IMG/VR virus record: IMGVR_UViG_3300025652_000001 | Span: 1-64,000 of that record | Reading direction: 5' to 3' (one strand) | From: a virus | DNA length: 64,000 bases | Part shown: positions 12,940 to 18,098 of the stretch, in pieces | How positions within the stretch are numbered: the first letter of the stretch is position 1 | How the letters are laid out: the number at the start of each line of letters is the position of its first letter | The notes under the pieces: generated by a model | Database searches by the model: none | The model's input: the letters and a program-made list of their open reading frames with translations, nothing else | Told to the model about the DNA's origin: nothing | Made by a program: the position numbers and the translations under genes

Positions 12940-12968
12940 AGAATACACCCTTCCTTGGAGTGTGTCAA
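12940..12968 (-). promoter_or_regulatory. sigma70-like promoter
   Basis: TTGACA (12963-12968), 17-bp spacer, TATTCT (12940-12945). The first transcribed bases contain ACAACTTAAACA, a sequence shared with leaders at 41.6, 42.1 and 42.7 kb. It overlaps the last codons of the HNH gene and drives the gene at 12908. Confidence 0.6.
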
Positions 12969-13759
12969 ATTATATTTGCTTTAAGTGATATGCGTTTCTC
13001 TTTGGGTAGGAGGTTTATCTTGCCGCGTCCTATTAAATATTTCTGAAACACAGTAAGATCCAGCAAACCTAATTGTATATTAGTACCTCCTATACACCCT
13101 GTCAACTCAATTACTTTTTCATCATACCGACAGGCTAATAATTCTTCATCAGAAGAATATCCTAAATGTAGGCGCTCTCCTTTTAAGGTGAGGTAGCTTT
13201 TGTATTTGTCCTCCGCTTTACTGTAAGATACCCCTTTGTATTTACTACTTGTACCGCTTTTTGGTTTTCTCCTATCTCTACCTTGTTTATGATTAGTAGC
13301 CCACTCGCAGTTTTCTTTAGTGTAGCCGCTGTTTACATCAATCCTGTTTAGAGTTAAACCTTCAGGACACTCTCCCATATCGGCAAAGAAGTTCTCAAAA
13401 GAAGCCCACTCACGGCAATACGTTATACCCCTATCTTTGTAATTTTTAAATGCTTGGTGGTTTGGATCATCGCATCTCGCCTTCATGTTTCTCCACGCGA
13501 TATAAGTTGGGGTTTTACTCATGTTGTGTGTAGTAATAAGATGTTCTACGGCTTTTAATTGTTTTCTGGCATTTTCGGAGTGAAGGCAACCACAACTCTT
13601 AGTACCACCCCGTAGAGTGGTAGATGATTTGATAATCTCCCTTTCTGGACTACAAGAACAGATGCACACATAGGCTGGTCTACCGTTAACCTTTTCATCA
13701 GCAAACCTTAGAATACTAAGCCTCCCTTGGCTCGTCCCCGATAAATCAAACTTCTTCAT
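12965..13759 (-). CDS. AP2/HNH homing-type endonuclease
   Basis: A 264-residue protein with three parts. Residues about 30-60 hold Cys pairs (CICSC...CGCL) that could bind zinc. Residues about 85-160 are the HNH-like core (NYKDRGITYCREW, ECPEGLTLNRIDVNSGYTKENCEWAT). The C terminus has an AP2-type DNA-binding domain (YKGVSYSKAEDKYKSYL). The closest relative in this window is the protein at 33108-33902, of equal length. Free-standing genes of this type are mobile in phages. It overlaps the phosphoesterase start region by 14 bases; I see no gene remnant beside this copy. Confidence 0.85.
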   Translation of the reverse strand: MKKFDLSGTSQGRLSILRFADEKVNGRPAYVCICSCSPEREIIKSSTTLRGGTKSCGCLHSENARKQLKAVEHLITTHNMSKTPTYIAWRNMKARCDDPNHQAFKNYKDRGITYCREWASFENFFADMGECPEGLTLNRIDVNSGYTKENCEWATNHKQGRDRRKPKSGTSSKYKGVSYSKAEDKYKSYLTLKGERLHLGYSSDEELLACRYDEKVIELTGCIGGTNIQLGLLDLTVFQKYLIGRGKINLLPKEKRISLKANII

Positions 13760-15988: not shown

Positions 15989-16526
15989 TAAACAATAACT
16001 CCCGTATTTGTTGTTTTCTCTTAGTTTCATTTGAAGCAGGTTCAACACCTTTATCAAGGAGCCACTGAGAAGATTGTTTAGCTTTTGATATAGCTATAAC
16101 TTCTTTCTCAATCCTAGCTTCTTCAAATGTCCCACCCGTCCTCTGTTGATGGGAACGAATTTTATGACAAGGTTTACATGCCAACCTGAAGTCTTTTCCA
16201 ATAAGGCCACCACAGTGCCACAGGAAGGATTCAGCAGTTTTCTTAGAGGTACAACCATCAGATTCGATTAAGTGGTCACACTCTAATTTACTTCCTGCCA
16301 TCCATTCCTTACAGAAACTACACTGACCAACGTTCTTAGTTGAAGGGTGGTAAACCTTATCTAAACGTTCCTGTGCGGTCACTGGACGAAGTTGAGACTG
16401 CTTCCATACCTTACGTAAGGGGTAGTCGCTCCAAAGCCTTCTGAGGGCCGACCTTAACCAGCTCCAGTAGTCGGCCTCCCTTTTCCAGACTACCCTCCCT
16501 TCATCAGTATCCCAAGGATTAGTCAT
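15972..16526 (-). CDS. HNH endonuclease
   Basis: A 184-residue protein. The HNH/zinc-finger core is CSFCKEW...LECDHLIESDG...LACKPCHKIRSHQQ, giving four Cys for structural zinc and the Asp-His plus late His of the catalytic site. The N-terminal third is Trp/Arg-rich. The start at ATG 16526 is set by AGGAGAG 5 bases upstream and overlaps the DNA ligase stop. It lacks the AP2 domain of the other four-member set. It may be a homing enzyme or a recombination/packaging nuclease. Confidence 0.8.
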   Translation of the reverse strand: MTNPWDTDEGRVVWKREADYWSWLRSALRRLWSDYPLRKVWKQSQLRPVTAQERLDKVYHPSTKNVGQCSFCKEWMAGSKLECDHLIESDGCTSKKTAESFLWHCGGLIGKDFRLACKPCHKIRSHQQRTGGTFEEARIEKEVIAISKAKQSSQWLLDKGVEPASNETKRKQQIRELLFNEEKR

Positions 16527-17391
16527 ACTCTCTCCTGAACCATTTGAATGTCCCAAACCTAGGCACTCCTAGTGCAGATAACTCTTGGTAACGGAAGGTG
16601 ATTAGTTTACCTAGGTATTCCTCTTTATTATCCCATATCTCTTTTCTTTGAGCATCGTTGAATCCGCTGCCCACATTAAAGAGAATACCCTTCCACTCTA
16701 CAATCAAGCTACCAAGTGTGTTGGCTCCAACCATTCCTTCTTTCTTACTGGAACGTTTAGCATAGCCTCTTTCATCACGTTCTTTTTCATTTGTATTATG
16801 TAGGCGTTCCTCAAACCCAACCACTACAGCCTCATCATCTAAGAATTTCTTCAACTTAAGTAGGTAGCCCTCTTTAAATGTTGATCTCCCTTGTTTGTAT
16901 GGACTATTAAAAGAACGCAACATTGCTCCCTCATAGCCAGCTTTAATGTAGTGTTCAAGTTGAATCTCTGCTTGTCCTGCATTCTCAACCACACCACTAT
17001 CAATTGCTGCAATGTAAGGGGAGTTTAATAGACTCACGGCACTTACTACACACTTAAAACGTTCTTCGTAGTTCTGTTCCAAATTCCACCAATCATAAAC
17101 AACATAATAGAAATCAGGTTCACCATCCTCACTCATAACAGCGGATTGGACTTTGTTGAAATCCCCATGAACCATTAACTCTCCATCAAATCCATGTAAC
17201 CCTAACTCGGCGAATACTTTCTGTATAAACTTATTAGGGATTAGTTTCATTTTACGACTGTAGGCTTTTCCGTTAATAGCCACACATCTAATTCCATCAA
17301 CTTTACACTGTATGAGGCATGGGTATTTCACCTGTGTCTCTAAGCATGGAATATCCGAACAAGCCAGCATGGGCTGTTTCATAAGTAACAT
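16519..17391 (-). CDS. ATP-dependent DNA ligase
   Basis: A 290-residue minimal ligase of the T7/bacterial LigD-core type that seals nicks in replicating DNA. Motif I is CKVDGIR (Lys is the adenylated residue, at about 30). Further motifs are FDGEL (III), GYEGAMLR (IV), LLKLKKF (V), and an OB domain with GSLIVEW and FRYQELS. Its first 30 codons are matched, in diverged form, by a separate fragment 600 bp upstream at 18006-18098, beyond an inserted HNH gene. Confidence 0.93.
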   Translation of the reverse strand: MLLMKQPMLACSDIPCLETQVKYPCLIQCKVDGIRCVAINGKAYSRKMKLIPNKFIQKVFAELGLHGFDGELMVHGDFNKVQSAVMSEDGEPDFYYVVYDWWNLEQNYEERFKCVVSAVSLLNSPYIAAIDSGVVENAGQAEIQLEHYIKAGYEGAMLRSFNSPYKQGRSTFKEGYLLKLKKFLDDEAVVVGFEERLHNTNEKERDERGYAKRSSKKEGMVGANTLGSLIVEWKGILFNVGSGFNDAQRKEIWDNKEEYLGKLITFRYQELSALGVPRFGTFKWFRREYD

Positions 17392-18009
17392 TTAAATAGT
17401 CTCCTCATACATATGAATTAATCTCTTGGCAACCCTTTCATCTTCTTGAAGTGCTGACAAGATTATTGCTAATTGCTTTTTACGCTCTCTCCAAGCAGAA
17501 TTGGCACCTTCTTCAGAGGGGTAGTAACCTAAGTGTTCTGTGGTATTAGTAAAAGGATTACTACATCTCGCCCTAAATCTCCCAGATGGTTTGTATAAAT
17601 CCACCCCTATTTTATAAGAACCTCTCCTACTACCGCAATCCAACATGAAACAATTCGTAAGTCTATCTACAAACACACATGTTTCTGGTGAGTAGGAACT
17701 ACCGTCCCCAAGTAAGTCTTTATCTAACTCCCTACCTTCCCAGTTTTGAGTTTCCATCCATGACTTGAATCGTGAAAATGTCAACCATTCCTCACAAACA
17801 GTGGTGTCAGTGTACGTTGGGTAGCTGGATAAAGTTTTTGTATTATAACACCTCTTTACCATATTAGACCACGTTGTGAAGTAAGGGCACCTTAGCCTCT
17901 TTTCACCCCTAATATCAACTTGATAATCTGCATCATTTAAACCTACCCCATATATTAAAGATATTTTACCCTTTCTTCTAGGAATCTTAGGAAACTCAGA
18001 CAATCTCAA
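17392..18009 (-). CDS. AP2/HNH homing-type endonuclease inserted at the ligase gene
   Basis: A 205-residue protein. The HNH-like region is WSNMVKRCYN, then VCEEWLTFSRFKSWM, then GRELDKDLLGDGSSYSPETCVFV. An AP2-type DNA-binding segment follows (YKIGVDLYKPSGRFRARC...EHLGYYPSEEGA). It resembles the protein at 42830-43399 more than the other two. The start is a TTG at 18009 (AGGAG close upstream); a second TTG two codons later is better spaced. The gene separates an N-terminal ligase remnant from the intact ligase gene. Confidence 0.8.
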   Translation of the reverse strand: MRLSEFPKIPRRKGKISLIYGVGLNDADYQVDIRGEKRLRCPYFTTWSNMVKRCYNTKTLSSYPTYTDTTVCEEWLTFSRFKSWMETQNWEGRELDKDLLGDGSSYSPETCVFVDRLTNCFMLDCGSRRGSYKIGVDLYKPSGRFRARCSNPFTNTTEHLGYYPSEEGANSAWRERKKQLAIILSALQEDERVAKRLIHMYEETI

Positions 18010-18098
18010 TACTCCTGAATTATTTTAGGCCAAGTAACTTGTGTATAAATGTCAGGAATCTCACTACTTGCCAGTTGGGGTTTAGTTAAAGTAATCAT
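18006..18098 (-). pseudogene. DNA ligase 5' remnant, 30 codons
   Basis: A frame with a strong start (AGGAGG before ATG) encodes 30 residues ending at TGA. It aligns with residues 1-30 of the intact ligase at 16519-17391: LASSEIPDIYTQV against LACSDIPCLETQV, and later P...IQ in both. It stops just before the codons for the catalytic Lys motif. DNA and protein differ clearly from the intact gene, so it is not a recent tandem copy but the leftover 5' end of another ligase allele, cut off by the HNH gene. The peptide may still be translated. Confidence 0.75.

Follow-up and report, generated by a model that had tools for sequence, protein, structure and literature searches.

A conserved 5' fragment of a DNA ligase gene beside an AP2/HNH gene: probable allele replacement by a free-standing homing endonuclease in a viral genome

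IPA-HNH homing endonuclease genes and HEG-islands have been described in ICP1-like and other phages (Barth et al. 2023, PMC10448857). Like these, the locus analysed here carries a free-standing gene for a predicted protein with a divergent HNH domain and a C-terminal AP2 domain beside an essential replication gene, and the HNH content is swapped among related loci, with neighbouring genes exchanged along with it. Unlike in HEG-islands, a single HNH gene, and not a flanking pair, defines the unit, and unlike in either described arrangement a 5' fragment of the putatively displaced gene has been left and conserved. The words 'ligase' and 'remnant' are both absent from the main text of that paper. 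For T4 intron homing, one-sided homing with illegitimate joining was demonstrated, according to the passage of PMC2988022 that cites Parker 1999. As with the free-standing homing endonucleases of T4 and intronless homing (PMC2988022), the gene stands beside its putative target and flanking sequence would be co-converted; illegitimate joining where homology is one-sided would be a further likeness, the asymmetry here being read from a natural junction.

The HNH gene is placed in a critical region of a replication gene, as are mobE in nrdA of Aeh1 and mobA in gene 60 of T4 (PMC2988022). Those genes stay split and both parts are used, whereas at this locus an entire gene stands downstream, and as part of a ligase the 5' piece is redundant. 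Mobile ORFs of fungal mitochondria (Allomyces and Glomus; PMC3630166) likewise join an endonuclease ORF to a foreign copy of a gene end, with the divergent native end left behind. In the fungi it is the C-terminal end that is replaced and fused in frame, whereas here nearly the whole gene would have been replaced and the 5' end left.

The 30-codon frame and its ligase type

The window, the whole stretch of DNA analysed (64,000 nucleotides), belongs to a virus record of 96,857 bases (a 96.9-kb genome). All genes of the locus are on the minus strand, and their order in the direction of transcription is an exonuclease gene (exo, 19407-18391), a small lysine-rich gene, 'mid', as the left flank (18365-18108), a 30-codon frame (MITLTKPQLASSEIPDIYTQVTWPKIIQEY, 18098-18006), a free-standing AP2/HNH gene of 205 amino acids (18009-17392), an intact ATP-dependent DNA ligase gene of 290 amino acids (17391-16519) and an endoVII-like nuclease gene (PHROG 1985, 16526-15972), which is the right flank of the putatively replaced segment. 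Adjacent frames touch or overlap throughout from the 30-codon frame to endoVII, the ATG of which overlaps the ligase stop. The ligase was assigned by PF14743, PF01068, PHROG 114 (E 4e-69) and trees. Among the phages of the GenBank-derived collection, no close relative of the locus was found. Bracketing of the ligase by homing endonuclease genes was examined, with the endoVII-like HNH (PHROG 1985) downstream and the AP2/HNH gene upstream; the former is more likely a recombination nuclease of the phage than a homing endonuclease.

The 30-codon frame is a DNA-ligase N terminus. Residues 1-28 of the window ligase were matched to it with no gap (18098-18015) at 46% identity (tblastn, E 0.007 to 1e-5). 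When the whole genome was ranked with a ligase N-terminus profile built without the window ligase, only the ligase itself stood above the frame (E 0.0028) among the 3,635 six-frame stretches, and a clade-specific profile gave E 4e-7. None of 5,000 shuffles of the frame reached the real score against the window ligase, and the same was found against each of the ligases L001 and L021. In a scan of the upstream sequence available (up to 3 kb) at 27 distinct ligase loci, a second N-terminal stretch was present at two, the window (2e-10) and L074 (1e-10), and absent at the other 25; L074 was included in the profile, and a third such locus, L091, was found after the scan. The frame was matched neither in PHROGs and Pfam, for which the query is too short, nor by tblastn against phages. 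A Shine-Dalgarno-like TAGGAGG lies directly 5' of its ATG, and the 3' end of 'mid' together with this ribosome-binding site (CTTTCGATAGGAG) is common to the window and L074.

An earlier note on this DNA, made from the letters, had placed the AP2/HNH gene between the frame and a complete ligase, and the coordinates and reading frames of the fragment, the HNH gene and the ligase, all on the minus strand, were re-derived with the same result. Its alignment of the frame with the first 30 ligase residues was upheld as to ligase identity and shortened in span to the gapless 28. The frame does end just before catalytic motif I, the similarity to ligase N termini that the note left to a profile search proved significant (the E values given above), and most codons are indeed different between the two 5' ends, the fragment sharing 12 of 27 residues and 42 of 81 bases with the adjacent ligase, whose catalytic Lys30 lies in KVDG.

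At the orthologous locus of contig L074, the intact ligase has an N terminus identical to the fragment at 23 of 27 residues. The window ligase shared with the L074 ligase 14 of 28 residues in the N terminus and 154 of 258 in the body, and Fisher tests separated the relation of the fragment to L074 from each of these (p 0.009 and 0.011, respectively). The N terminus and the body of the window ligase thus stand alike to L074, and the same holds for their relation to L001 and L021, so that the window ligase is one coherent allele of another type. Judged from these comparisons, the fragment is the 5' end of an L074-like ligase type, unlike the ligase now present. Residues 96-163 of the window ligase lean towards the L074 type (scan p 0.0025; 12 of the 16 informative sites), whereas the remainder is like the G001/G002 ligases; gene conversion may have produced this patch, or rates may vary here, where the protein is most variable. 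With the moderate tree support reported below, this stretch indicates that the window ligase may be a mosaic.

The AP2/HNH gene and its pairing with ligase genes

The HNH gene matched PHROG 953 'HNH endonuclease' (E 1.8e-75). Its HNH motif is degenerate, and no Pfam HNH match was obtained, as is reported for the IPA-HNH family. The C-terminal half was modelled by AlphaFold as an AP2 fold (pLDDT about 90 there) and resembled the AP2 domains 7wq5 and 1gcc with a Foldseek probability of 1.00, though with E 0.03-0.07. The AP2/HNH label of the earlier note was thus supported by fold for AP2 and by PHROG 953 for HNH, and the gene is predicted to have the divergent HNH and AP2 domains of IPA-HNH homing endonucleases. 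Homologs of this free-standing gene adjoin nrdA/B, DNA polymerase, primase/helicase, terminase and other genes; among the 24 loci of the HNH family that were scanned first, a duplicated host-gene 5' end was found at the window's own locus only.

The nearest ligases to that of the window (62-65% identity) were those of G001 (ligase L001) and G002 (ligase L021), both viral contigs of similar size. In both, an AP2/HNH gene directly precedes the ligase and is itself behind a phosphoesterase gene, and no ligase remnant was found before the HNH-ligase pair. Their exo and endoVII genes are sited elsewhere, touching in G001 and separated by another HNH gene in G002. In most relatives, exo and endoVII stand together with no ligase of the window's family between them. 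The exo-endoVII boundary seems to be a repeated landing place of HNH genes, holding an HNH gene in G002 and an HNH gene and a ligase in the window. The closest relative of the window exo (73%) is in L007 (7010-7920 of the 27.6-kb contig G003), where exo, a small gene and endoVII follow one another; no ligase or HNH gene lies between exo and endoVII, and no relative of the window ligase was found in that contig.

In the trees, the window HNH was sister to the G002 HNH (support 100/99, 70% identity), whereas the G002 ligase was sister to the G001 ligase (98/98 and 100/99, 80% identity). This conflict indicates that the HNH gene has not shared the history of the flanking gene, as is expected of a mobile gene and of a homing endonuclease. 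The grouping of the window ligase with those of G001 and G002 against L074 was moderately supported (86/84). By the AU test, neither the placement of the window, L021 and L001 HNHs together (p 0.22) nor that of the window, L021 and L074 HNHs together (p 0.37) was rejected, and the number of independent HNH arrivals is uncertain. Synonymous sites were saturated for both the HNH and the ligase genes, so neither transfer can be dated.

Proposed replacement and its junctions

The reading that we favour, with somewhat better than even confidence, is that an AP2/HNH gene and the adjacent ligase replaced most of a resident L074-type ligase gene and left its 5' codons behind. A free-standing homing endonuclease would thus have brought about the replacement of an allele, with a conserved 5' fragment of the displaced gene left in place. 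In the pre-insertion state, as reconstructed by comparing loci, the resident L074-type ligase would have stood just before endoVII. The incoming unit would have been an AP2/HNH gene with the ligase allele behind it, a pair of the G001/G002 type, and the replacement would have run from catalytic motif I onward. The HNH enzyme would have caused the replacement by nicking or cutting a ligase gene that lacked the HNH gene, in or close to the motif-I codons, and repair would then have copied the HNH-ligase segment of the donor. On the 3' side, shared ligase homology would have allowed the exchange to be resolved inside the gene or at its end. On the 5' side, a phosphoesterase gene in the donor would have faced 'mid' in the recipient; because these neighbours are unrelated, illegitimate or microhomology joining to the HNH start would have been needed, as in one-sided repair, and codons 1-28 of the recipient ligase would have been left behind. 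The homology of the fragment, its type, the pairing of HNH and ligase genes elsewhere and the positions of the junctions are established.

The left junction (17995..18014, minus strand) is confined to 20 bp between the end of the ligase homology, at CAG (Gln28, 18017-18015), and the start of the HNH homology to L021, at Phe6 (17994). The last codons of the fragment supply AGGAG (18016-18012), which is positioned to serve the HNH start, likely TTG at 18003 (giving 203 amino acids). The TGA of the fragment overlaps this TTG as TTGA in both the window and L091, reached by different sequence. At the HNH-ligase junction (17382..17410, minus strand, from sequence comparison of the loci), GAGGAG within the 3' end of the HNH gene could act as the ligase Shine-Dalgarno sequence; this junction, with GAGGAG in the HNH coding region, is common to the window and L021 (G002) and is arranged differently in L001, L074 and L091.

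The TTGA overlap in the window and L091 suggests that the fragment is a translational leader feeding the HNH gene. Since the fragment still has its ribosome-binding site and initiation codon, and terminates on the start codon of the HNH gene, it would probably couple translation into the HNH gene, then the ligase and then endoVII. Such a role would explain why the frame stays open but not, taken alone, why its residues are conserved. Predicted RNA structure at the leader was no better than that of shuffles.

The recurrent layout and alternative histories

L074 was found by an endoVII protein scan on a 4.9-kb contig and is colinear with the window through the 3' end of 'mid', a ligase remnant, an HNH gene, an intact ligase, endoVII (73% identical to that of the window) and further genes. 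L091 (RXKB01000047.1) was found by a scan with the L074 ligase and has a 5' remnant, an HNH gene, an intact ligase and endoVII, the HNH and ligase being 65% and 76% identical to those of L074, respectively. L091 is phage-like (exo, ligase, endoVII, HNH) yet filed under a Candidatus Dependentiae MAG, and is probably a mis-binned phage contig. The HNHs of L074 and L091 are of a lineage different from that of the window; the layout is thus repeated in at least two other phages with another HNH lineage, so the event is either recurrent or ancestral. The replacement proposed in the earlier note stands as the best reading, with the L074-like fragment and the G001/G002 pairs behind it; the conserved, recurrent layout was not foreseen there. 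That note had also taken conservation of the peptide as an independent gene to speak against replacement, and the frame did prove conserved in L074 and L091, though it is plainly ligase-derived.

The three remnants read ITLTKPQLASSEIPDIYTQVTWPKIIQ followed by EY (window), VDLVRPQLASSDVPDIYTQVSWPKIIQPKL (L074) and IELKKPQLASSEIPDIYTEVSWPKIIQPKLRNQP (L091). In each the break falls at catalytic motif I (PK-L-DG): the window remnant stops immediately ahead of the motif, those of L074 and L091 after Lys-Leu. Pairwise dN was 0.18-0.25 with dS 2 or saturated, the differences being mostly synonymous, and none of 1,500 neutral simulations gave so few residue changes. Old debris should have decayed; instead, the residues of the three remnants are largely conserved. 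This counts against the replacement reading unless each truncation is recent, as do the degenerate HNH motif and the moderate support for the ligase grouping. They are either recent independent cuts from an unseen living ligase with Trp before Pro or a selected ancestral mini-gene; no intact HNH-less ligase of this Trp type was found in the collections searched. A two-step history, with an ancestral remnant and a later cassette swap, may also be considered. If replacement by homing is correct, the junction would be a natural record of how a free-standing homing endonuclease can move an essential neighbour gene to another genomic site and overwrite the resident copy, with the break of the overwritten ligase falling at the catalytic motif. 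With one layout in three phages, both the target site and the direction of exchange become open to test, and the conserved fragment prompts one to ask whether homing debris has been put to use.

An unlikely but still serious alternative is that the fragment arose a single time, in an ancestor common to the window, L074 and L091, and that selection on the 30-residue product has since maintained it, the HNH gene and the ligase being exchanged later. Homing would then have turned the first 30 ligase codons into a selected mini-gene, a leader and perhaps a functional peptide, before interchangeable HNH-ligase cassettes, which we regard as doubtful to a like degree. The low dN and the simulations are in its favour, as are the ribosome-binding site, start and open frame retained in all three remnants and the features common to them, LASS and a Trp before Pro where Tyr or Phe occurs in 26 of 26 intact ligases. 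However, the same pattern is equally expected from recent cuts out of a functional Trp-type ligase, an N-terminal ligase strand has no plausible function, the ends of the remnants differ (IIQ-EY, PKL and PKL-RNQP), and the frame is missing from L001, L021 and the exo-endoVII loci without HNH.

It is improbable that the element consisted of the HNH gene and a replacement ligase 5' end of about 28 codons, the body being the resident's own, although the break lies exactly at motif I, where homology is expected for both arms, and the ligase Shine-Dalgarno sequence lies inside the HNH gene at a junction common with L021. A resident body would be expected near the 85% identity of the fragment to L074, and 60% was found (Fisher p 0.011), so that the fungal pattern, in which the body is kept and the end alone is replaced, does not apply. 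A resident body with a new 5' end is also disfavoured by the likeness of the ligase N terminus and body in their relation to L074, L001 and L021.

Arrival of the remnant, the HNH gene and the ligase as one block, after truncation in another phage, is slightly less probable again. Its appeal is that no ligase occupies this site in L007, which has the nearest relative of the exo (73%), and an intact ligase here is thereby left unproven for the lineage; against it, the 3' end and ribosome-binding site of 'mid' and the endoVII flank are common to L074, where the layout recurs, and the block must therefore be old here.

A spliced gene, with the remnant as ligase exon 1 and the HNH gene within an intron, is very improbable: introns do typically break conserved motifs and HNH-bearing phage introns are common, but the HNH gene overlaps the stop codon of the remnant and adjoins the start of the ligase, which leaves no space for a core, and the downstream ORF has a complete N terminus of its own. 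No intron was detected at the locus by Rfam at gathering or relaxed thresholds, and a mobile group I or II intron was rejected for want of a core and of space between the ORFs. Chance likeness of an unrelated small ORF, for which only the 30-residue length speaks, can practically be dismissed in view of the profile ranking, the shuffles, the multi-locus scan and the remnants of L074 and L091.

Several further HNH genes were observed. In Pseudaeromonas phage KLEP7 (L053, 100-3148), an anaerobic ribonucleotide reductase is annotated as two pieces that directly precede an AP2/HNH gene of the same family, possibly a split gene. A second AP2/HNH-type gene of the window genome (42830-43483, minus strand) is about 30% identical to the HNHs of L001 and L021. 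A PHROG 374 HNH gene follows a calcineurin-like phosphoesterase gene in the window (12965-13759, minus strand) and has a homolog of 39% identity at the equivalent place in L074 (3614-4333), and the HNH gene exactly between exo and endoVII of G002 (L065, 7489-8427, minus strand) is also PHROG 374-like.
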